DNA of 64,000 bases from a virus. This document shows positions 52,970 through 64,000 of this stretch, one piece after another. How positions within the stretch are numbered: the stretch's first letter is position 1; each line of letters begins with the position of its first letter. Under the pieces are notes generated by a model, which saw nothing but the letters and a program-made list of their open reading frames with translations, was not told the origin of the DNA and ran no database searches. The stretch is from the IMG/VR virus record IMGVR_UViG_3300020469_000020, positions 1 through 64,000 of that record, one strand, 5' to 3'. The position numbers were made by a program, and so were the translations under genes.

Positions 52970-54991
52970 ATGAAAAGTTTTTTAAATTTTTTAAAAGAGA
53001 ACTCTACAATTGTTGATGAAGGTGTTTTTATAGGTGAAGATGTTCCTATGGGAAAGTTTGTTTCAACAAAAGAAAAAGACATATTAATTGGAAGTGATAC
53101 TAAGCAAGGATTTTATTTATATTTTGTTGAGTATGATTCTTTAAACAAACCTGGTCAGAGTAATATATATTTTGGTATTAAATATAGACCTGGATCAGAA
53201 GGTGATCCTGATCTGTTTTGGGGTTCATTGAGAACACAGAATGAAAAACTGAATAAACCTTTGAAAATGTCTATGTGGAAAGACTTTGTAGTAAAATGTA
53301 ATAGCAACGTATGCAAGCCAGAAAGTGAAAACATTGTAAAACCTGGAAACATATACATGTCTTCTGCTTCAGCACAAACACCTGAAAGTTTACCAAGAAC
53401 AATTTATCAAGGTTTGACAAATCCTAATAAGCAAAAATTTCATCCTTGGATTGTTAATACTACAACTCTAAAGTATGCAAAAAAGGCCGCTGGAGTAAAA
53501 GATGATTCTGATATCAAAATATATCCAATAGCTAAGAATAGAAATACAAGAATCCCTACAGGTAGTGAATATGCATATAGGATTTATGTTTTAGATGACA
53601 TGAACAAACTTCAAGAGGTTTTAACTAAGATAAGAAAAAGTTCTTCAAAATTACCAGCAGAAGTTAAAACTTTTTTCAAACAAGCCGAAGATAATAAAAA
53701 ATATATTAAAGAAGTTTTGATTACAGAAAATGCTCAGGAGTTTATAGCAAAATTTTATCCTATTATAGAAGAGTATTACAAAGATAAGAAAAAACCCTCA
53801 GAATTAAGCACTAAAGAAAGTTATTTTAATTTTCTAAAAAAGTCTATAGAAAAGAACGCTTGGGTTTTAGTTGGTACATTTGAATCACTAGCTACTATAA
53901 TGATGGACAATCTAATTAATGGGAAAAAAGAAGGTCCATATGATCATTTGAATAAACTGTATAATAAGAAAACTGATACAGGTGTAGCACTTCAAGTAAA
54001 ATCAACACAAAAAATAATAAATTTTAAACCAGAACTATTTGATGTTTACTTACCGGCATCTTTGAATAAAGAAGCTAAAGATGAACTTGGAGCATATTTA
54101 ACAGGTGATGATGCTAGTGCAATTAAAGAACGTGAAAAAAAGAAAAAAGAAGATGAGGAAAGAAAAATAGAAAATCAGAAAAAAAGAGAAGTTAGAAGTA
54201 AACTTATGTTTGTTCCTATTCGCTCTGATTTTATTGTAGATGATGTTGCAACAAACTTTTTAAAAGATATAGTTAATGCGGTTAACAACAAAAATGTAAG
54301 TGTGGTTGTTAAATTAAGAAAGTATTTTTTAACCAATGGCATAAAAGATATGATGTCTTTACATGCAGATAAACCACTGAATAAATTATTTATAAAAAGT
54401 TCAACTAGAAATGAAGTTTATATAAAATCTCCTACGCCTATGAGTGCTGGAGATGAAAAGAAATTTTCAAAGAAAATTACAAAATTAACTGCATACGATT
54501 ACATGAAACAAGTATTATCAATGACTACTTCTGATGCTGATATACTTAGAAGAATGTTTACTATGTATGATTTTGTTAATACATTTTTTGATATTGATTT
54601 ACCGGCAGAAGTTAAGTTTATGAAAGTTAGTGATTTCGTAAAAAGTGATTATATGAATGCATTAACTGGTAATAAAAAGAAAGAAGAAACTAAAGAAAAA
54701 GAACAAATAGCCGCATCATATATTGAGGATGTGAATGGTGAATTATTAAATGAAGCAGAAGTTTCTAAAGTTGATAAAGCAGCATTTACACATGTATTTG
54801 ATCTTTTGAAAACTGAAAAAAATCCTTATGGAAATATATTTTTTGAATTCAATGGTAAAGTTTCGCAATTAAATAAAGGTGGTTTAAAAGAAGATACAAA
54901 AGGTGATGATAAGTCTTTTGATAAATTAAAAAAATTAGTTATTCTTTCTAGTGATTTTGGAATTACGCACCATAATTTAAGTAAAAAATAA
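52970..54991 (+). CDS. Putative internal head protein with capsid-targeting leader
   Basis: This protein has 673 residues and an unknown family. It begins MKSFLNFLKENS, which aligns residue for residue with the T4 capsid-targeting sequence pattern MKTYQEFIAE. The cut site would follow LKE at residues 8-10. T4 Alt, an injected ADP-ribosyltransferase, has a similar total length (682). Residues ~143-215 (RTIYQGLT, then HPWIVNTTTLKYAKKAA, then SEYAYRIYVLDD) faintly recall an ART/KptA-type fold, but catalytic residues are not convincing. A Lys/Glu helix lies around 385-410. It is first in the plus operon, with AAGGA at the start and gp14 three bases after the stop. Confidence 0.55.
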   Translation: MKSFLNFLKENSTIVDEGVFIGEDVPMGKFVSTKEKDILIGSDTKQGFYLYFVEYDSLNKPGQSNIYFGIKYRPGSEGDPDLFWGSLRTQNEKLNKPLKMSMWKDFVVKCNSNVCKPESENIVKPGNIYMSSASAQTPESLPRTIYQGLTNPNKQKFHPWIVNTTTLKYAKKAAGVKDDSDIKIYPIAKNRNTRIPTGSEYAYRIYVLDDMNKLQEVLTKIRKSSSKLPAEVKTFFKQAEDNKKYIKEVLITENAQEFIAKFYPIIEEYYKDKKKPSELSTKESYFNFLKKSIEKNAWVLVGTFESLATIMMDNLINGKKEGPYDHLNKLYNKKTDTGVALQVKSTQKIINFKPELFDVYLPASLNKEAKDELGAYLTGDDASAIKEREKKKKEDEERKIENQKKREVRSKLMFVPIRSDFIVDDVATNFLKDIVNAVNNKNVSVVVKLRKYFLTNGIKDMMSLHADKPLNKLFIKSSTRNEVYIKSPTPMSAGDEKKFSKKITKLTAYDYMKQVLSMTTSDADILRRMFTMYDFVNTFFDIDLPAEVKFMKVSDFVKSDYMNALTGNKKKEETKEKEQIAASYIEDVNGELLNEAEVSKVDKAAFTHVFDLLKTEKNPYGNIFFEFNGKVSQLNKGGLKEDTKGDDKSFDKLKKLVILSSDFGITHHNLSKK

Positions 54992-55844: not shown

Positions 55845-56786
55845 ATGTTTTTTACTAATTCTGTAAGCGAACAAGACCAGTACCACCAAACTATAAGAAA
55901 TTTGGTGGTTGTAATTGGTTCTTTGTTTTCTAAAATGTTACTTGTAAGAAAAAATCATAAAACAGATATAATTGAAGAGAAAATTAGTGTACCAATAAAT
56001 TTTTCAAATCGTGATAAATTGTTAACACTAGTAAGAGAAGTACCTGATATAGATTCTAAAAATACTAATTATACAATTCCTCGTATTGGATTTTCTTTTG
56101 ATGGGTTAAGTTATGACGGTCAGCGCCAGCTGCCAAAAACTGGTGGTAGAGGAAGACCTACAAAAGATGAAAAAAATAAAAAAGATGCACTTATAATGTA
56201 CAACGGAGTTCCGTATAACTTTGATTTTACTGTTTCTATTGTAACTAAATATGCAGAGGACCTTACACAACTTGTTGAAAAGATTTTACCTTATTTTACA
56301 CCTAATTTAAATATTACATACAAAGCTATACCAGAACTAAGTTTAAATATTGATGTTCCATTATTACTCAATGGAGTGAATTGGCAAGATGATTACCAGG
56401 GATTGCAAGAAAGAAGATTATTAATAGCTGACCTTTCTCTAACTGCAAAATCTTATATTTTTCCACCAATAAAAAGCTATCCAAGAGTAAATACTGTTTT
56501 TGTAGAAACACACACTCTTGCAACCGCCGGAGATTTATATACCAAAAATAAAGTAGCTTTAACTGATAACACAGGAAATACCGTTCAAACAGAATATGGT
56601 GGTAATTTACAAGACGAAAGAGCAAGTAATGCTATGACTGATCCAAGGAATGAGCATAGTTTAATAAAAATATATGGTTATGAAGATAGTGATGACTTTG
56701 GTTTTAAAGAATTTATATATGAAGGAGTAACATACGATACACAAAGAGAAAGAGAAGAAGCATGGGCAAACAATGAAATCATTTAA
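55845..56786 (+). CDS. 15: Tail completion / sheath stabiliser gp15
   Basis: This protein of 313 residues (T4 has 272) has an N-terminus (YHQTIRNLVVVIGSLFSKML) and SVPINFSNRDKLLTLVREVP that match gp15-type terminators of the contractile tail. gp15 caps the finished tube and sheath and binds the neck. Residues ~165-205 contain ALIMYNGVPYNFDFTVSIV and ILPYFTPNLNITYKAIPELS. A C-terminal ~90-residue extension is acidic. It follows gp14 closely and overlaps the start of the ADP-ribosyltransferase-like gene by 14 bases. Confidence 0.85.
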   Translation: MFFTNSVSEQDQYHQTIRNLVVVIGSLFSKMLLVRKNHKTDIIEEKISVPINFSNRDKLLTLVREVPDIDSKNTNYTIPRIGFSFDGLSYDGQRQLPKTGGRGRPTKDEKNKKDALIMYNGVPYNFDFTVSIVTKYAEDLTQLVEKILPYFTPNLNITYKAIPELSLNIDVPLLLNGVNWQDDYQGLQERRLLIADLSLTAKSYIFPPIKSYPRVNTVFVETHTLATAGDLYTKNKVALTDNTGNTVQTEYGGNLQDERASNAMTDPRNEHSLIKIYGYEDSDDFGFKEFIYEGVTYDTQREREEAWANNEII

Positions 56787-57369
56787 ACAATTTATAGTAG
56801 AAGAAGATTATAAAGGTGAACACAAAGCACCTTCAAAAAGTCAAGCGGCTCCTTTAAATGATTTAACGGATAATGGTATATATCCAAAAGATGTATATTC
56901 TTCTAATGGATTAAGATATTATGGAACCGGAAGCAACCTTGATAATAAAGCATATGCTATAGTTGACAGTGTCAAAAATAAACCAGAAAGTAAAGTTAAA
57001 ATGTATCGTGCGGTTCCGCATGTAAAATCAAAAGAAGAAAGATTAAGTATAATTAATACTGCTAAAAAAATGTGGATGAAAAGAGAAAAGGTTCATCCTG
57101 CTTTTGAAAGATTAAGTATTCCAAAGAAACAGTATTATGATTGGTTGCATAATGAAGCTGAAAAAATAGAAAAAGAAAAAGAGGAAAAAGATAAGGAAAT
57201 CACCGAAATTAATCCTGGTGACTGGGTAACAACAGTTTTAGGTTATGCAAAGGAACATGGCAAAGCGAATTTAAATGATGAATATAAAGTGTTAAGTAAA
57301 ACAGTAAAAGCTAAAGAACTCTATACCGATGGTAATAGTTGGTTAGAGTGGGCGTATTTGCCAAACTAA
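56773..57369 (+). CDS. ADP-ribosyltransferase-like protein with head-targeting leader
   Basis: This protein has 198 residues. It begins MKSFKQFIVEE, matching the T4 capsid-targeting sequence, with a predicted gp21 cut after IVE (residues 8-10). The C-terminal ~125 residues carry an arrangement I know from phage and polyvalent-protein ADP-ribosyltransferases: KMYRAVP (Arg79), INPGDWVTTVLGYAKEHG (147-163), then VKAKELYTDGNSWLEWAYLP with Glu192. In such enzymes Arg, the Ser/Thr position and Glu bind NAD. Head packaging and injection would place it in the host at once, like T4 Alt. A charged linker (125-145) splits the domain. It overlaps gp15 by 14 bases. Catalytic activity is inferred. Confidence 0.65.
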   Translation: MKSFKQFIVEEDYKGEHKAPSKSQAAPLNDLTDNGIYPKDVYSSNGLRYYGTGSNLDNKAYAIVDSVKNKPESKVKMYRAVPHVKSKEERLSIINTAKKMWMKREKVHPAFERLSIPKKQYYDWLHNEAEKIEKEKEEKDKEITEINPGDWVTTVLGYAKEHGKANLNDEYKVLSKTVKAKELYTDGNSWLEWAYLPN

Positions 57370-57382
57370 GTAAGGAGAATAG

Positions 57383-57865
57383 ATGAAATATATTAAAAGT
57401 ATATTTGTAATGCTTTGTATATCTACGATTTTAGCATTTTCCACTCAGGCAGAACTTCATTCGGATACCTATATAGGAAATGGTAGAACATTTGTAAACA
57501 TTGTTAAACATATTGAAAGAGGTGGAAAAAAATATCCACTCTTTTATACATCTAAAGAAGATGTGTATGCTTTTTCATTTGATTATGTTGTAGCAGAAAT
57601 GAAAAATATGGAAAAAGCAGAAGCAATAGCAAAAAAATATGGAGTTAAACTCACGGCATACAATGATTTACAAATTGCTCTTTTTATTGCTGACAGTCCA
57701 ATGGAAGTTATGGATTTGTATAAAAAATTAAAAACTGAACCAATGATTGAATATTTGGAGTTAGCTTTATTTGAAGCACATCCAGACATGAAAAAATATG
57801 TCGTAAAGCTTCCTGGTGTTGAAACACCGATAGGTAATGTAATGCTTTGGTTTGATAAATGGTAA
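57383..57865 (+). CDS. Secreted protein with protease-propeptide-like domain
   Basis: This protein of 160 residues has a typical signal peptide (residues 1-23, MKYIKSIFVMLCISTILAFS then TQA) with a likely cut before Glu24, so it enters the periplasm. The mature part, from about residue 70, reads AEAIAKKYGVKLTAYNDLQI and later LKTEPMIEYLELALFEAHP. This resembles the N-terminal propeptide/inhibitor domains of subtilisin-like proteases (I9 type), although no protease follows. An AAGGAG site precedes the ATG. It opens a four-gene membrane cassette before gp16. Possible roles are inhibiting a host periplasmic protease or supporting the two membrane subunits. Confidence 0.6.
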   Translation: MKYIKSIFVMLCISTILAFSTQAELHSDTYIGNGRTFVNIVKHIERGGKKYPLFYTSKEDVYAFSFDYVVAEMKNMEKAEAIAKKYGVKLTAYNDLQIALFIADSPMEVMDLYKKLKTEPMIEYLELALFEAHPDMKKYVVKLPGVETPIGNVMLWFDKW

Positions 57866-57881
57866 TCTAAAGGAGAATCAA

Positions 57882-58343
57882 ATGAGTATTTTTTTGAAGT
57901 GGTGGTTGTTAATAACATTGACAGTTATGGGAATAGCAACTAGTATTTATTTTAATTTTCATATGTTTTTATTTAATAATGACCTTACAAAATTAAGTTT
58001 AGTAATTTTATCTTTATTTATAATTAGCACTATAGTTATTGGTTACAAGATATGGTATGGAAAAATAAAGAAAATTAAAGAATATAGCTTTGAAAAAGAA
58101 TGGTTTGTAAGTGAATTATTAATTAGTTTAGGAATGATTGGTACGGTTATTGGTTTTATATTCATGCTATATTCTGTGTTTGTGGATTTAAATATAGAGG
58201 ATGCACAAGCAGTTCAAGAAAGTTTAGGCGGAATGGCGCAGGGTATGGGTACTGCACTACTCACAACTTTAGTTGGTCTTATTGGTAGTGTGTTAATTAA
58301 AAGTCAATTAGTAATGGTAGAAGATGAGAAAATACAGCAGTAA
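57882..58343 (+). CDS. MotA/TolQ/ExbB-like membrane channel subunit
   Basis: This protein has 153 residues from the ATG at 57882, which is preceded by AAAGGAG. An upstream in-frame TTG at 57852 lacks a ribosome site. Four membrane segments lie at about 5-27, 35-57, 76-98 and 119-140. The last two carry SLGMIGTVIGFIFMLYSV and GMGTALLTTLVGLIGSV, the signature of the MotA/TolQ/ExbB proton-channel family (LG..GTV.G, GxALxTT..GL). These proteins form a pentamer around a TolR/ExbD dimer and use the proton gradient. The next gene overlaps by 20 bases and encodes a TolR/ExbD-like partner. The cytoplasmic loop is short compared with TolQ. Confidence 0.75.
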   Translation: MSIFLKWWLLITLTVMGIATSIYFNFHMFLFNNDLTKLSLVILSLFIISTIVIGYKIWYGKIKKIKEYSFEKEWFVSELLISLGMIGTVIGFIFMLYSVFVDLNIEDAQAVQESLGGMAQGMGTALLTTLVGLIGSVLIKSQLVMVEDEKIQQ

Positions 58344-59022
58344 TCTTGCTTTCATAGACCTGCTATTTAATCTCATACTTGGTTTTGTTTTTCTTTTTGT
58401 TGTAAGTTTTTTATTAATTAATGATCCAACAAAAAAAGATAACGTAGAAGCTAAAGCTGAGTATATGATTATAATGAGTTGGGATGCAGATAAAGACGTT
58501 GATATTGATTTATGGGTACAAGGTCCAAGTGGTCTTGTAGGATTTAGACAACCTATGGCTGGATTTATGAACTTAGACCGTGATGATTTAGGTCATCGTA
58601 ATGATAGAATTGTTCGTGGTCCAAATGCGGGAGAAATTGTCTACTTAAATCGTGAAGTTGTAAATATAAGAGGATTTCAGCCTGGCGAATATGTTGTAAA
58701 TGCACATTATTATTTTGGAAGAGGTCCATATCAAAGCGATTTATCAGTAGAAATAACAGTTGAGGTTTTAAAGTTAAATCCATATTCACAAGTTTATGTT
58801 GGTACTAAAAAAATATTTAAAAAAGGTGAAGAAAGAACTTTTACAAGATTTACAATGAAACCAAATGGATATTATACTAATGTAAATGAGTTACCAAAGG
58901 CACTAGTAATGGTAGGACATGACTTACCACCTTCAACAAGTTTTGGACAAAGCCTTCAAGGTTCACATCCTGGTCAACCTAAAACTGATGATGATGATGA
59001 TAACAATGATGATGGAACATAG
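58324..59022 (+). CDS. ExbD/TolR-like membrane protein with large outer domain
   Basis: This protein has 232 residues. A short cytoplasmic N-terminus is followed by one membrane helix (8-32, LAFIDLLFNLILGFVFLFVV). It holds Asp12 in the position of the proton-carrying Asp of ExbD, TolR and MotB. The outer part (about 47-180) begins MIIMSWDADKDVDIDLWVQG, like DUF2135/YfaP-type beta-sandwich domains that start DVDL.V..P.G, and includes FQPGEYVVNAHYYFGRGP. The C-terminus is acidic (DDDDDNNDD). No peptidoglycan-binding OmpA motif is seen. It overlaps the ExbB-like gene by 20 bases, so the two subunits are probably made in a fixed ratio. Confidence 0.7.
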   Translation: MRKYSSNLAFIDLLFNLILGFVFLFVVSFLLINDPTKKDNVEAKAEYMIIMSWDADKDVDIDLWVQGPSGLVGFRQPMAGFMNLDRDDLGHRNDRIVRGPNAGEIVYLNREVVNIRGFQPGEYVVNAHYYFGRGPYQSDLSVEITVEVLKLNPYSQVYVGTKKIFKKGEERTFTRFTMKPNGYYTNVNELPKALVMVGHDLPPSTSFGQSLQGSHPGQPKTDDDDDNNDDGT

Positions 59023-59031
59023 GAGAATATC

Positions 59032-59556
59032 ATGATATACTTAGTAACACTTTCTATATTTTTAGTTTCTGTATTTTTATATCTTTTGATAGAATTAAAA
59101 AGAAGTATACATTTAATATACGTTATACCTCTTAGTCTTATTTTTACAGCTGGAAGTTATTTTTATCTAGATTCTTTGTTTGGATATCCAGTTGCAAAAA
59201 CTAATGAAGAGAAATTTTATTTATTGTCATATTATATTGCACCAGAAGAAACAACTATTAATATGTGGGTTATTTTAGAAAAGGAGACCGTTCCAAAGGC
59301 TATAGTTCTTCCATACGATCAAGAAACGCATGAAGCACTTGAAGAAGTAAGAAAAAGAATGGGTGAGGGTGATGCTGTAATGGGTGAATTTAATATCACA
59401 ACTGACCCAGGAACAGAGTTGGAAGGAGCAACACAAGATGACAAACAATCATCAGGAGGAACTAGAAAATCAGCAGGCGGAGCTTTTAATATACTAAACC
59501 TAGACTTATCATCAAAACTACCACCAAAAGACCAATATGTCATCGGCGATGATTAA
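59032..59556 (+). CDS. Membrane protein of the ExbB/ExbD-like cassette
   Basis: This protein of 174 residues has two N-terminal membrane helices (about 2-22 and 27-50) and a soluble C-terminal domain. That domain contains TINMWVILEKETVPKAIVLP and HEALEEVRKRMGEGDAVMGE. This latter pattern (W.....PK/R.ivlPY....H..LE..r..) is familiar from small proteins of marine T4-like phages, with no function known to me. GGAG precedes the ATG, nine bases after the ExbD-like gene. Its end overlaps gp16 by 20 bases. It may be a third subunit or regulator of the membrane complex. Confidence 0.6.
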   Translation: MIYLVTLSIFLVSVFLYLLIELKRSIHLIYVIPLSLIFTAGSYFYLDSLFGYPVAKTNEEKFYLLSYYIAPEETTINMWVILEKETVPKAIVLPYDQETHEALEEVRKRMGEGDAVMGEFNITTDPGTELEGATQDDKQSSGGTRKSAGGAFNILNLDLSSKLPPKDQYVIGDD

Positions 59557-60068: not shown

Positions 60069-63000
60069 ATGCCTGAAACCGTTTCACGAATACTAATTAA
60101 AAGCTCAACCTCCAAACCAACTCCTAATACCGGTACTTTACAAAGAGCAGAATTAGCTTATTCATATTCTTCTGATAAATTATTCATAGGTGATGAATTA
60201 GGTCAAGAACCTCTTTTAATTGGTGGAAAGACATTTTTAAGTTTATTTGATAATGTATTAGATGATAATGGAACGGCAAAAGCTGGTCAAGTATTTGCTG
60301 GTAATGTTATTATAGCAGGCGCAAATAATACAATTGATGATTTAAATATTGAAAACTTAAAAGTAAATGGTGTACCATTAGCTACTGCTAATATTACAGA
60401 AGTTATCACAAGCAACACTCTTCCAAATGTAGCCGATACAAAATTAGTTTCAGCTAAAGCAGTAAAAGACTATATTGGAAATGAGTGGTTAGATTATCTA
60501 GAAACAATTTCAGCAAACACAGTATCTTCTGGACAATTATTAATTGTAGGTGCAAATAATAAATTTGAAAATAAAAGCACCACCGGAGCCATAAAATTTT
60601 TTGCAAATGGTCATTCCGAGATTAATAATAGTTATATAGAAAATTCTATGCTAAAGAATTTTTCTATTCGTTTAGGATCTCAAGATATAAAACTTGGTGA
60701 TGCGACTCTAGTAAATTTAAATTTGGATACATCCGGAGTATTAAATGTTAATCGTGGAGGTACAGATAGATATGACATAGAAAAAGATTATGTGATGTTA
60801 GGAAATGGTACTAATTCAGTATCTACAACAAGTGATTTCGTTTTTAATATTGATACCGCTAATAACAATCTACTTTATGCAAACGCAAATGCACATATAA
60901 CTAAAAGTGCAACAGTTGGTGAAACTCTTCAAGTGGCAAATGGATTATTTACATCCAATACTAATTTAAGATTCAAAGAATTTTTTCAAATAATTAACAT
61001 AGAAAATATAAGTTCATTTGATTCATCAATTGTATCTTACGATCTTATCAGTGAGTATTTCAGCTTTTCTACAGGAACAGTATTAAATGTATCTGACGCT
61101 GGTCTTGTTAATATAAAATCACCTACATTATTTTTTGGTTCAGAATTAACAACATCCAACAATACAGTTACTACTTTAACAGGAAAATTATTTGCAAATA
61201 ATGATTCTTCTTTTAATGGTAATACATTAACTGTTTCTACAGACACAATTACTACCTTTGATGGACTTGTTACTTTAAACAATAATACATTTATTAATGG
61301 TAACAATCTTAATGTATCTACTAGTACAGTAACAACTGTTGACGGTCTTGTAACTCTAAACAATAACACATTTATTAATGGCAATACTTTAAATGTTTCA
61401 GTTGATACTACATCAACTTTTGAAGGTGTTGTTAATTTAGAAAATAATACTTTTGTCAATGGTAATACTTTAAATGTTTCTGCGAATACTTTATCTACGT
61501 TTGATGGACCAATTGTTCTTAATGGACAAGTTGATATAAATGGTGACGTAGTTTTTAGAGGCAATACTACCTATCTAGGAGAAAACTTCACTGTATCAAA
61601 TAATACTACAGTAGATATAAGTGGTAATGCTTTCTTCAAAGGTGATCAATTAAATGTATCTTCTAATACAATAACAACAGTTGATGGTGAATCTGCATTT
61701 AACAAAAAAGTAGATATCAATGCTCCACTTACTGTATACGATAATGCAGAAGTAAAAGGAAATTTAGTTGTTGAACAAGACCTTTTTGTATATGGTAACT
61801 CAACTCAAATATTAACAGAAACATTAACTGTTGAAGATAATATTATTGTTCTTGCTGCGAATAATACTACAGACGTTGTTGATTTGGGATTTGCCGGTAG
61901 ATACAATGAAAGCGGAACTCCTGCTTTTGCGGGGTTGTTTAGGGATGCAACAAATAATAAATTTTTCTTATTTGAAGATTATCCTACAGAACCGCCTATA
62001 GTATCAATGACAGGTTTTGATAGTGCAACAATGTTAGCTACCTTATTTGCTGACATAGAAGCAAATACTATCATAGCACATAAAGGAACTCTAGATGATG
62101 TAGTTATTACGAATTCTCATTTAAATGATAGTTTTGCAAATAACTTAACAAGTAACAATGCTACTTTAAATACTGGAACAATAGATAGTTTCACGATAAC
62201 TAATTCTCATTTGAATGATAGTTTTGCTAATAATTTAACAAGTAATAATGCAACTTTAAATAGTGCCGTTCTTAATAATGCCTCAATACATGACTCATTT
62301 GCAAATAACATAACTGCAAATAATGTAGACATAAACTTTGGAACTATAAGAAGCGTAAGCATATATAATTCTACCATATATGATTCAAGTATAGTAGATG
62401 ATTCCACTGCAAATAATTTAACAAGCAATAATGCAACACTAAATTCTGTTGTTATTGAAACTGCAACCGCTAACAATATTACAAGTAATAATGCTGTCTT
62501 AAATACAGCAACCATTTATAATGCAGTTGCAAATAATTTATTGAGTAATAATGCTACTTTATATTTTGCAAAAATATATGATTCTAATTTATTTAATGCA
62601 CATGCCACAACTTTAAGTGTTGATGTCCTTGATGCAGGTTCTATTAGTTTTAGAACTGCTATTGAAAATATAGATGCAAATAATTATATCGGTAATACAG
62701 CAACTATAGATAATATAGATGCAAATAATTACACCGGTAATACAGCAACTATTATAAATGTAGATGCAAATAATTATACTGGTAACACAGCAACTATAAA
62801 TGATATAGTTGCAAACAATATTACAACAAATACGTTTACTTCATTAGTTAAAACAGAAGCTACTGAGGAAATAAAGGTATTAGGTGTTTCTGGTACAAGC
62901 GGTAAATTAGTATTAAATTGCTCTAATAATTCTCATGGCCAAACTGTTATTGCACAGCCACATTCAGCTAGTGTAACAAATATATTAACATTACCGGCCG

Positions 63001-64000
63001 GTGCTGATCAAGAACTTGTTGGTACTGTTGCACAACAAACATTAACAAGTAAAACACTTGATGCTCCGAGTGTTAACAATCTATTAACACTTAGAGGAGA
63101 TGGTTCTTCTGTTACAGGTCAACTTAAATTAAATTGTCATGATAATTCTCATGGACAGACTATTATTGCACAGCCGCATTCAGCTAGTGTAACAAATATA
63201 TTAACATTACCTCCTGGTGGTAATCAAGAGATAGTAGGAACTACTGCTACACAAACACTTGTTAGTAAAACACTTGATGCACCAAGTATAGAAAATTTAT
63301 TAACTCTAAGAGGTGATGGTTCTTCTGTTACTGGTCAACTTAAATTAAATTGTCATGATAATTCTCATGGTCAAACCATAATAGCTCAACCACATTCAGC
63401 TAGTGTAACAAATATATTAACACTACCAGCTGGCGCCGATCAAGAATTTGTCGGAACTCTTGCACAACAGACATTAACAAGTAAAACATTAACATCTCCT
63501 CAAATTAATAATGCAACAATTGCTAATGCAGCAATAACTTCTGGTACAATGACTAGTACTGCATTAGATTCTGTTACTATTATAGATTCCAGTGCAAATA
63601 ATTTAACAAGTAACAATACTACACTTGGTGGAACAACTACCTTTAATGGTAACACAACTATTACTGAAAATCTAACAGTTAATAAAGATTTAACGGTAGA
63701 TGGTAATTTATTCTTAACGGGCAATACTGTTACACTAGATGCACAGACATTGACTGTGGAAGATAATATAATTCTACTTAGTTCAAATAATGCTGCTGAT
63801 GTTACAGATACAGGATTTGCAGGTAAATATAATAATGGAAGTTCCGATTTATATGCTGGTATCTTTAGAGATGCTACTGATGGGGTCTTTTATATATTCA
63901 AAGACTACACCTCAGAGCCAGGAACAACAATGACAGGATTTAATACTGCTACAATGAGAGCCACTCTTGCTGGCGATTTTGAAGCTAACAATATTGTAGT
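60069..64000 (+). CDS. Large tail fibre (3' end outside window)
   Basis: The reading frame is open from the ATG at 60069 to the right edge, giving at least 1310 residues. It starts MPETVSRILIKSSTSKPTPN, a start I associate with marine T4-like fibres that continue LQRAELAYSYSSDKLFIGDE. Repeat blocks follow: NGNTLNVS modules (27 residues), SFANNLTSNNATLN modules, 15-residue IDANNYTGNTAT modules, and three copies of a 72-residue unit with HGQTIIAQPHSASVTN. Two copies of a LTVEDNI(I)VL segment (near residues 590 and 1230) link it to the fibres at 5846 and 25951. It is a trimeric beta-rich fibre. The tip, which would show host specificity, is outside the window. Confidence 0.8.
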   Translation, partial: MPETVSRILIKSSTSKPTPNTGTLQRAELAYSYSSDKLFIGDELGQEPLLIGGKTFLSLFDNVLDDNGTAKAGQVFAGNVIIAGANNTIDDLNIENLKVNGVPLATANITEVITSNTLPNVADTKLVSAKAVKDYIGNEWLDYLETISANTVSSGQLLIVGANNKFENKSTTGAIKFFANGHSEINNSYIENSMLKNFSIRLGSQDIKLGDATLVNLNLDTSGVLNVNRGGTDRYDIEKDYVMLGNGTNSVSTTSDFVFNIDTANNNLLYANANAHITKSATVGETLQVANGLFTSNTNLRFKEFFQIINIENISSFDSSIVSYDLISEYFSFSTGTVLNVSDAGLVNIKSPTLFFGSELTTSNNTVTTLTGKLFANNDSSFNGNTLTVSTDTITTFDGLVTLNNNTFINGNNLNVSTSTVTTVDGLVTLNNNTFINGNTLNVSVDTTSTFEGVVNLENNTFVNGNTLNVSANTLSTFDGPIVLNGQVDINGDVVFRGNTTYLGENFTVSNNTTVDISGNAFFKGDQLNVSSNTITTVDGESAFNKKVDINAPLTVYDNAEVKGNLVVEQDLFVYGNSTQILTETLTVEDNIIVLAANNTTDVVDLGFAGRYNESGTPAFAGLFRDATNNKFFLFEDYPTEPPIVSMTGFDSATMLATLFADIEANTIIAHKGTLDDVVITNSHLNDSFANNLTSNNATLNTGTIDSFTITNSHLNDSFANNLTSNNATLNSAVLNNASIHDSFANNITANNVDINFGTIRSVSIYNSTIYDSSIVDDSTANNLTSNNATLNSVVIETATANNITSNNAVLNTATIYNAVANNLLSNNATLYFAKIYDSNLFNAHATTLSVDVLDAGSISFRTAIENIDANNYIGNTATIDNIDANNYTGNTATIINVDANNYTGNTATINDIVANNITTNTFTSLVKTEATEEIKVLGVSGTSGKLVLNCSNNSHGQTVIAQPHSASVTNILTLPAGADQELVGTVAQQTLTSKTLDAPSVNNLLTLRGDGSSVTGQLKLNCHDNSHGQTIIAQPHSASVTNILTLPPGGNQEIVGTTATQTLVSKTLDAPSIENLLTLRGDGSSVTGQLKLNCHDNSHGQTIIAQPHSASVTNILTLPAGADQEFVGTLAQQTLTSKTLTSPQINNATIANAAITSGTMTSTALDSVTIIDSSANNLTSNNTTLGGTTTFNGNTTITENLTVNKDLTVDGNLFLTGNTVTLDAQTLTVEDNIILLSSNNAADVTDTGFAGKYNNGSSDLYAGIFRDATDGVFYIFKDYTSEPGTTMTGFNTATMRATLAGDFEANNIV
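61281..61381. repeat. 81-bp period repeat in fibre gene
   Basis: The word aataatacatttattaatgg (61281-61300) recurs with one change at 61362-61381. Related copies lie on either side, giving a 27-residue NGNTLNVS module repeated about five times between 61200 and 61700. Confidence 0.7.
62113..62262. repeat. 90-bp period repeat in fibre gene
   Basis: A block starting attctcatttaaatgatag at 62113 is repeated at 62203 with few changes (period 90 bp). It encodes NSHLNDSFANNLTSNNATLN on both occasions. Shorter relatives of the ANNLTSNNATL core continue to about 62570. Confidence 0.75.
62673..62810. repeat. 45-bp period repeat in fibre gene
   Basis: The word gatgcaaataatta occurs at 62673, 62718 and 62763, an exact 45-bp period, encoding DANNYTGNTATI-type units of 15 residues. 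This matches one turn of a beta-helix or a short fibre repeat. Confidence 0.8.
62880..63480. repeat. Three 216-bp tandem modules in fibre gene
   Basis: The word cattcagcta occurs at 62961, 63177 and 63393, an exact 216-bp (72-residue) period. The second and third modules are nearly identical over about 120 bases, while the first differs at its 5' end. They encode L.LNC.(N/D)NSHGQT(V/I)IAQPHSASVTN units. Confidence 0.85.

Follow-up and report, generated by a model that had tools for sequence, protein, structure and literature searches.

The locus

IMG/VR record IMGVR_UViG_3300020469_000020, 105 kb in full, comes from a marine virus of bacteria, and the window analysed here is its first 64,000 nucleotides. 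Towards the end of this window three consecutive genes encode an ExbB/MotA/TolQ-like channel protein, a single-helix ExbD-like partner and a two-helix third membrane protein, referred to below as the triad. Judged by its predicted genes the phage is T4-like, with gp14-, gp15- and gp16-type genes in order on the plus strand; gp15 was identified by PF16724 (E = 8e-48) and gp16, the terminase small subunit, by phrog_445 (E = 6e-19). From gp15 to gp16 the window holds an accessory gene, a gene for a secreted protein and then the three membrane-protein genes. The four open reading frames (ORFs) that the original prediction placed upstream of gp16 are thus all present in this interval, on the plus strand, as follows.

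57383–57865, plus strand: secreted accessory protein, 160 amino acids (aa), with a signal peptide ending in STQA, cleaved before E
57882–58343, plus strand: ExbB/MotA/TolQ-like channel subunit, 153 aa, with a PF01618 match, four hydrophobic helices and a minimal cytoplasmic part
58324–58343, plus strand: 20-nt overlap of the ExbB-like and ExbD-like genes (overlap or a gap of ≤5 nt in 80 of 87 viral loci)
58324–59022, plus strand: ExbD-like partner, 232 aa, with a helix at 6–32 that carries Asp12, a beta-sandwich at about 47–188 and an acidic tail
59032–59556, plus strand: third core membrane protein, 174 aa, a helical hairpin (2–21, 27–49) followed by a small domain

The ExbB-like channel subunit

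The best start for the ExbB-like protein is the ATG at 57882, which has AAAGGAG just upstream, rather than the TTG at 57852. The protein matches PF01618 (MotA_ExbB) with 26.9 bits, above the gathering score of 22.9 (E = 4.4e-6); a cellular homologue reaches 30.9 bits, and all 11 members of a diverse ExbB-like set match the family at E ≤ 1. Profile searches of the PDB returned MotA (8gqy, E = 8.9e-6) as the best match, and also ZorA (8qyy, E = 2e-4) and TolQ. A charged loop, predicted to lie on the cytoplasmic side, joins helices 2 and 3. In the HMMER alignment, residues T88, T129 and G132 fall on T145, T178 and G181 of TolQ, and the channel-lining threonines of the last two helices that mark the MotA/TolQ/ExbB family are therefore present (T88 and T129). 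T129 and G132 are invariant in all 165 viral and cellular copies; position 88 is Thr in 83 of 86 viral copies and Lys in 50 of 79 cellular ones. Phage proteins are mostly about 134–200 aa long and nearly all cellular ones 173–285 aa. The original assignment to the ExbB/MotA family is borne out by the family score and the four hydrophobic segments, and the motifs on which it was based (GTVIGF and GTALLTTLVGL here, Asp12 in the partner) are as described.

The models closest to the ExbB-like protein in both NCBIfam and PADLOC are those of ZorA, a match that covers the membrane core only and scores 13–30 bits (24.2 bits in NCBIfam, against a cut-off of 700). This likeness could point to counter-defence, with the phage proteins mimicking a subunit of host Zorya, Tol or Ton complexes as a decoy or in a dominant-negative way. 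The long ZorA tail is missing, however, and PADLOC returned no match, to ZorB or to Zorya effectors, when the partner, third protein and secreted protein were scanned along with two neighbouring proteins of the window; membership of Zorya itself was rejected. The channel residues are also strictly conserved, although a decoy would have no need of them, and the triad exists in cells as an operon of its own, often beside genes for dehydrogenases dependent on pyrroloquinoline quinone (PQQ), which weakens the interference with Zorya proposed originally. We regard counter-defence as improbable.

The single-helix partner and the third protein

An AlphaFold2 model of the partner built from 66 sequences (predicted local distance difference test score, pLDDT, 83) consists of one helix at residues 6–32 and an all-beta domain at 47–188, in which D60, D62, D85, R86, D87, D88 and E111 are invariant. 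The N-terminal helix is the only one and bears an Asp of the essential type, as in ExbD and TolR. D12 is invariant in all 86 viral copies; the corresponding count for cellular partners is partial, because the chosen start lies downstream of the Asp in 19 of 80 loci. Sequence profiles did not extend this likeness, as PF02472 (ExbD/TolR) found no match in the window protein at E ≤ 10 or in 11 homologues at E ≤ 1. In a Foldseek search of the PDB, DUF4425 beta-sandwiches ranked best (probability 0.98, E = 0.015), and the best 50 matches listed included none with a fold of the ExbD, TolR or OmpA-like type. The predicted single helix with Asp12 and outer domain, all-beta in our model, thus stand, as does the lack of an obvious peptidoglycan-binding feature, while the DUF2135 identity proposed for the outer domain was rejected: PF09906 matched one of 11 homologues, at E = 0.13. 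A beta-sandwich would account both for the missing peptidoglycan-binding features and for the failure of the ExbD profile. In one cellular subclade (L208:6596-7282 and L209:6779-7435) the ExbD-like helix seemingly lacks the Asp, reading FDPLGVMLFK and FDPFSVVLFK against DPFTDLLFN.

The third protein was modelled with a pLDDT of 82, and a fold search of the PDB gave no match below E = 0.29. Nor was there a TonB match in Pfam at E ≤ 10, so the protein does not resemble the third component of Ton systems. G51 and K166, the latter in an LPPK tail, are invariant in alignment A8, and an LPxK-like tail is common among the homologues. Because the loop between the two helices is basic in most of them, the positive-inside rule places the small domain, by prediction, in the periplasm. 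The third membrane protein claimed for the cassette is accordingly upheld, as a predicted two-helix hairpin protein, and in nearly all loci a homologue is encoded after the ExbD-like partner.

A conserved unit of three genes

A profile scan of IMG/VR for the partner found 262 relatives, and 80 of their loci were analysed. A second viral scan with the partner of the phage 16-3 type found 71; the two sets may partly overlap. In the first set nearly all loci that are not cut by a contig end have a two-helix gene after the ExbD-like one, and in the second the triad stands in order within 4 kb in 60 of the 71. The partner also occurs in 27 named phage records, all from phages of Rhizobium or Sinorhizobium, where it is annotated as a 'hypothetical protein' or by gene number. 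The order ExbB-like, ExbD-like, two-helix is kept in 16-3, TM3_3_14B, N3_19, P10VF, I1_18, N34 and X2_25, with a homing endonuclease or small ORF sometimes inserted among the triad genes of rhizobiophages. The gene order is therefore not random: it is fixed across unrelated phages. The tight spacing noted originally is real, and the 20-nt overlap likely reflects translational coupling of the first two genes. That the viral contigs are misfiled chromosomes was considered and rejected, since 10 of 20 large records carry a T4-type gp23 and 7 of 20 a terminase domain, and no viral triad has PQQ genes nearby; some smaller records have neither marker, and their viral status is that given by IMG/VR.

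The gene for the secreted protein does not belong to this unit. It is found in L001–L007 and is missing from L017–L020, where the ExbB-like gene directly follows gp15. The protein has no match in the phage collection and a weak one, under the cut-off, to PF18492 (E = 3e-4); its ratio of nonsynonymous to synonymous substitution rates (dN/dS) is 0.12–0.13. It is a lineage-specific accessory confined to close relatives of the window phage, outside the conserved core. The four-gene cassette of the original prediction was consequently rejected: the four are not found together between gp15 and gp16 in every case, and the unit that stays intact, at varied sites, comprises three genes. Where computable against two related contigs, dN/dS for the four genes is 0.09–0.18, near the 0.08–0.15 of gp15, which indicates purifying selection on all four.

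Taken alone, the window protein scores modestly against PF01618 (E = 4.4e-6), and membrane segments inflate such scores, so one may ask whether the triad comprises unrelated small membrane proteins with a chance likeness to ExbB. Divergent homologues match the family independently, though, the channel residues align with those of TolQ, and the gene order with an Asp-bearing single-helix partner is fixed. Together with the overlap and the dN/dS values, the invariant Asp, Thr and Gly residues and this fixed order argue for a selected two-subunit channel rather than chance membrane proteins, and we consider chance likeness very improbable. The identity of the triad as a motor is well supported. 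No PHROG or NCBIfam family covers the triad above its cut-off, and it was not found as a described system in Pfam, PHROGs, NCBIfam or PADLOC or in the open-access literature searched for phage-encoded or PQQ-linked ExbB/ExbD.

Genomic settings in phages and linkage to lysis genes

The triad has no fixed place in phage genomes. In the clade of the window phage its site is between gp15 and gp16, and some members lack the gene for the secreted protein; in L021 and L025 it is found between uvsY and uvsW, and in P10VF and N34 it is followed downstream by genes for a gp55-like sigma factor and gp46/47-like proteins. In siphophage genomes of the 16-3 type it comes after a gene for a secreted serine protease resembling trypsin (PF13365 in phage 16-3). 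In a clade of huge phages (L035, L038, L040, L046, L056, L064 and L069, with contigs of up to 328 kb) Hsp20 or DnaK is encoded upstream and ClpS directly downstream, forming a host-like proteostasis island beside the envelope motor. The 'phage late operon' in which the cassette was originally set is, given this variety, incidental. Members of the huge-phage clade also encode ClpP, ClpA, SbmA/BacA and aldehyde-dehydrogenase-like proteins near the triad. A ClpP/head-protease-like gene stands directly 5' of the ExbB-like gene in L055 (phrog_94, E = 2.9e-19; phrog_1827, E = 6.6e-14), L077, L081 and L087.

The trypsin-like protease gene is 5' of the triad in L009, L010 and L015 and in 28 of the 71 siphophage-type loci (L211–L281), and may encode a functional partner. 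The protease is periplasmic, and this association bears on superinfection exclusion or envelope remodelling, in which the motor would alter the periplasm or outer membrane and so block a second injection or change receptors. The envelope location, the periplasm-facing domain and the presence of the triad in temperate and lytic-type phages alike fit such a role; on the other side, no match to an exclusion protein was found, and the PQQ-linked chromosomal copies described below would need another explanation. We think exclusion rather doubtful, although it is the main rival to the role in envelope energisation favoured below; lysis and anti-Zorya functions are weaker.

A lysis aid, which would set the timing of lysis or help to break through or weaken the outer membrane, is suggested by a few loci: the triad adjoins an endolysin gene in L031 and an Rz-like spanin gene in L036, and a lysozyme gene lies within about 4 kb of it in TM3_3_14B and X2_25. 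Where endolysin and spanin families were detected among 43 virus records and the window phage, however, they are usually far from the triad. In L038 the triad is at about 281 kb and the lysis genes at 27 and 42 kb; the corresponding positions are about 13 kb versus 103 and 115 kb in L056 and about 63 kb versus 27 kb in L021. The window phage has its own Rz-like spanin (G000:85048-85422, minus strand; phrog_812, E = 2.5e-13), 25 kb from the triad and outside the window. This distance and the separate spanins of this phage and of other carriers make a general role in lysis, whose timing the original prediction named among possible functions, unlikely, as is replacement of the spanin; with linkage to lysis genes exceptional, a lysis cassette was rejected. 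Cells, moreover, keep the triad, and the collapse of membrane potential caused by holins would stop proton-driven work. A lysis aid is thus an improbable explanation.

Cellular homologues and PQQ-dependent alcohol dehydrogenases

A scan of genome contigs recovered 175 cellular relatives, mostly from Burkholderiales and Gammaproteobacteria with some from marine Alphaproteobacteria, and 80 of these loci were analysed. Nearly all hold the triad, and most also a gene for a small lipoprotein. This protein, encoded after the triad (for example L101:8078-8785), is DUF3108-like at E = 1e-4, below the cut-off, and is a candidate outer-membrane partner of the motor.

Genes of PQQ-dependent alcohol dehydrogenase systems lie within about 7 kb of the triad in 54 of the 80 loci. 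In L092, TIGR03861 and TIGR03866 score above the curated NCBIfam cut-off and TIGR03863 and TIGR03864 just below it. For the 26 loci without such neighbours, 20 genomes were searched whole and every one encoded a PQQ alcohol dehydrogenase scoring above the cut-off, against none of 14 control genomes. The partner family, which falls into two classes, is present in 56 of 385 sampled alphaproteobacterial genomes. The PQQ beta-propeller TIGR03866 occurs in 18 of the 30 with class 1 and in 32 of the 355 without it (Fisher p = 1.5e-10), a co-occurrence that is indicative only, as the test ignores kinship. A PQQ-dehydrogenase-like gene is beside the triad or one gene away in L200–L205, two of these genes being confirmed by profile. 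Class 2 (motif VFRDVI) forms a solitary triad operon among unrelated genes in the Alphaproteobacteria (L192–L194, L196–L199, L206 and L207).

Cellular triads thus stand in or beside lut-type clusters (TIGR03861, TIGR03863, TIGR03864, TIGR03866), while phages carry the triad alone, with no PQQ gene near any viral copy. The TIGR0386x genes beside cellular triads presumably correspond to lut genes. In Methylorubrum extorquens, lutA, lutE, lutF and lutH were shown to function in the transport of lanthanides, and the lut gene table of that source lists no ExbB/ExbD-like gene (PMC7391723).

Exchange between cells and phages

A maximum-likelihood tree of the partner (quick search, 118 rows, unrooted) has a branch labelled 100* that sets the 16-3-type phages and class 2 cells apart from the remaining phages and class 1 cells; p040 of phage 16-3 shares about 40% identity with class 2 proteins. 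As phages join each cellular class, the module has been exchanged between cells and phages at least twice, and since the phage copies occupy many deep branches these exchanges are old. The module is of a cellular type.

Other genes of the window

The nearest relatives of the terminase are those of T4-like phages of Methylophilales, Sinorhizobium and cyanobacteria (42–46% identity). The gene before the secreted protein (56773–57369), originally called ADP-ribosyltransferase-like, finds nothing in Pfam at E < 0.05; its PHROG match is phrog_2579 (E = 9e-33), which bears the label 'ParB C-terminal domain'. Its product and those of 52970–54991 and of L002 4632–5051 begin with sequences of the type MKSFLNFLKE, MKSFKQFIVEE and MKSFHSFLLEE. 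These starts resemble the leader that directs the internal head proteins of T4 to the capsid, and the proteins may be packaged in the head. A search for T4 late promoters was uninformative in this AT-rich genome (312 matches versus 310 expected). From 60069 to 63998 and beyond runs a very long ORF with many near-repeats of the NNATLN and NGNTLNVS types, probably a tail-fibre or appendage gene; an antisense open frame of 175 aa at 61037–61564 is likely incidental.

A proposed envelope motor and its relation to known systems

Motors of the 5:2 type are known to power flagella, transport at the outer membrane, cell division and defence against phages, and in MotAB, TolQR and ExbBD ion flow past Asp and Thr residues is established to move the partner within the ring. 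By analogy, the triad would form a compact, ion-driven inner-membrane motor of the 5:2 type, most likely powered by protons, in which a pentameric ring of the ExbB-like protein surrounds an axle made by the single-helix protein, with Asp12 as the protonatable residue, while the two-helix protein joins as a third subunit with its domain facing the periplasm. As the proton-motive force drives ions past Asp12 and Thr88/Thr129, the dimer of single-helix proteins would rotate or shift inside the ring. The beta-sandwich would move with it and act on a partner that lies in the periplasm or the outer membrane, with the third protein perhaps as intermediary. The class 1 motor of cells would work with PQQ-dependent (quinoprotein) alcohol dehydrogenases; its partner there probably belongs to quinoprotein metabolism, and it probably energises an envelope step in metal, cofactor or substrate supply or in enzyme maturation.

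Like ExbB–ExbD(–TonB), the triad has channel helices with conserved Thr and Gly, a single-helix partner with Asp and the co-transcribed order B then D. It differs in that its partner is a predicted beta-sandwich without PF02472, its third protein a hairpin without a TonB match, and its ExbB-like subunit trimmed to 153 aa. The four hydrophobic helices and the best PDB profile match, 8gqy, recall MotA–MotB/PomA–PomB, but neither model nor profile gives the partner an OmpA-like peptidoglycan-binding domain. In ZorA–ZorB, the ZorA membrane core provides the nearest named profile to the ExbB-like protein; the triad lacks the long ZorA tail and a ZorB match. ExbB, as the energiser of TonB systems, has been reported in Lentisphaerae phages as a possible auxiliary metabolic gene (PMC11361711); there it belongs to a set of genes for polysaccharide use, and the text neither names ExbD nor describes a triad. 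The superfamily is known, but the databases and open-access papers searched contain no counterpart to the combination of a beta-sandwich partner, a hairpin third subunit, a fixed order, a cellular PQQ link and a very wide spread in phages.

For the task in infection, we infer that the triad is a mobile motor driven by the proton-motive force that serves the phage as an auxiliary envelope energiser, keeping up or redirecting an envelope step of the host; we give this an even chance of being correct. Of the proton-driven envelope machine foreseen originally, an ExbB/MotA-type channel with an ExbD-type partner, co-conserved and under selection, is upheld, whereas the four-gene cassette is not. 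A broader proposal, which we put forward more tentatively, is that a new class of 5:2-type motor serves PQQ/lanthanide-type alcohol oxidation in bacteria and has repeatedly been taken up by phages, giants included, for proton-powered work on the envelope of the infected host. Several observations weigh against these readings. No PQQ genes adjoin the class 2 triads of cells, and working with PQQ systems may therefore be just one of the uses to which a general motor is put. The 43 triad-bearing virus records contain no PQQ-dehydrogenase gene, which led us to reject phage-borne PQQ metabolism and implies that phages do not co-carry the cellular partner. The triads of huge phages and rhizobiophages have quite different neighbours, and the direction of transfer between cells and phages is not rooted.

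As a distinct, widespread and unnamed type common to phages and cells, the triad would add a branch to the superfamily of 5:2 motors. If the proposed role is true, phages gain a proton-powered tool that acts on the host envelope. Two testable questions follow: what the triad contributes to the metabolism of quinoproteins, and why it is so common among phages.

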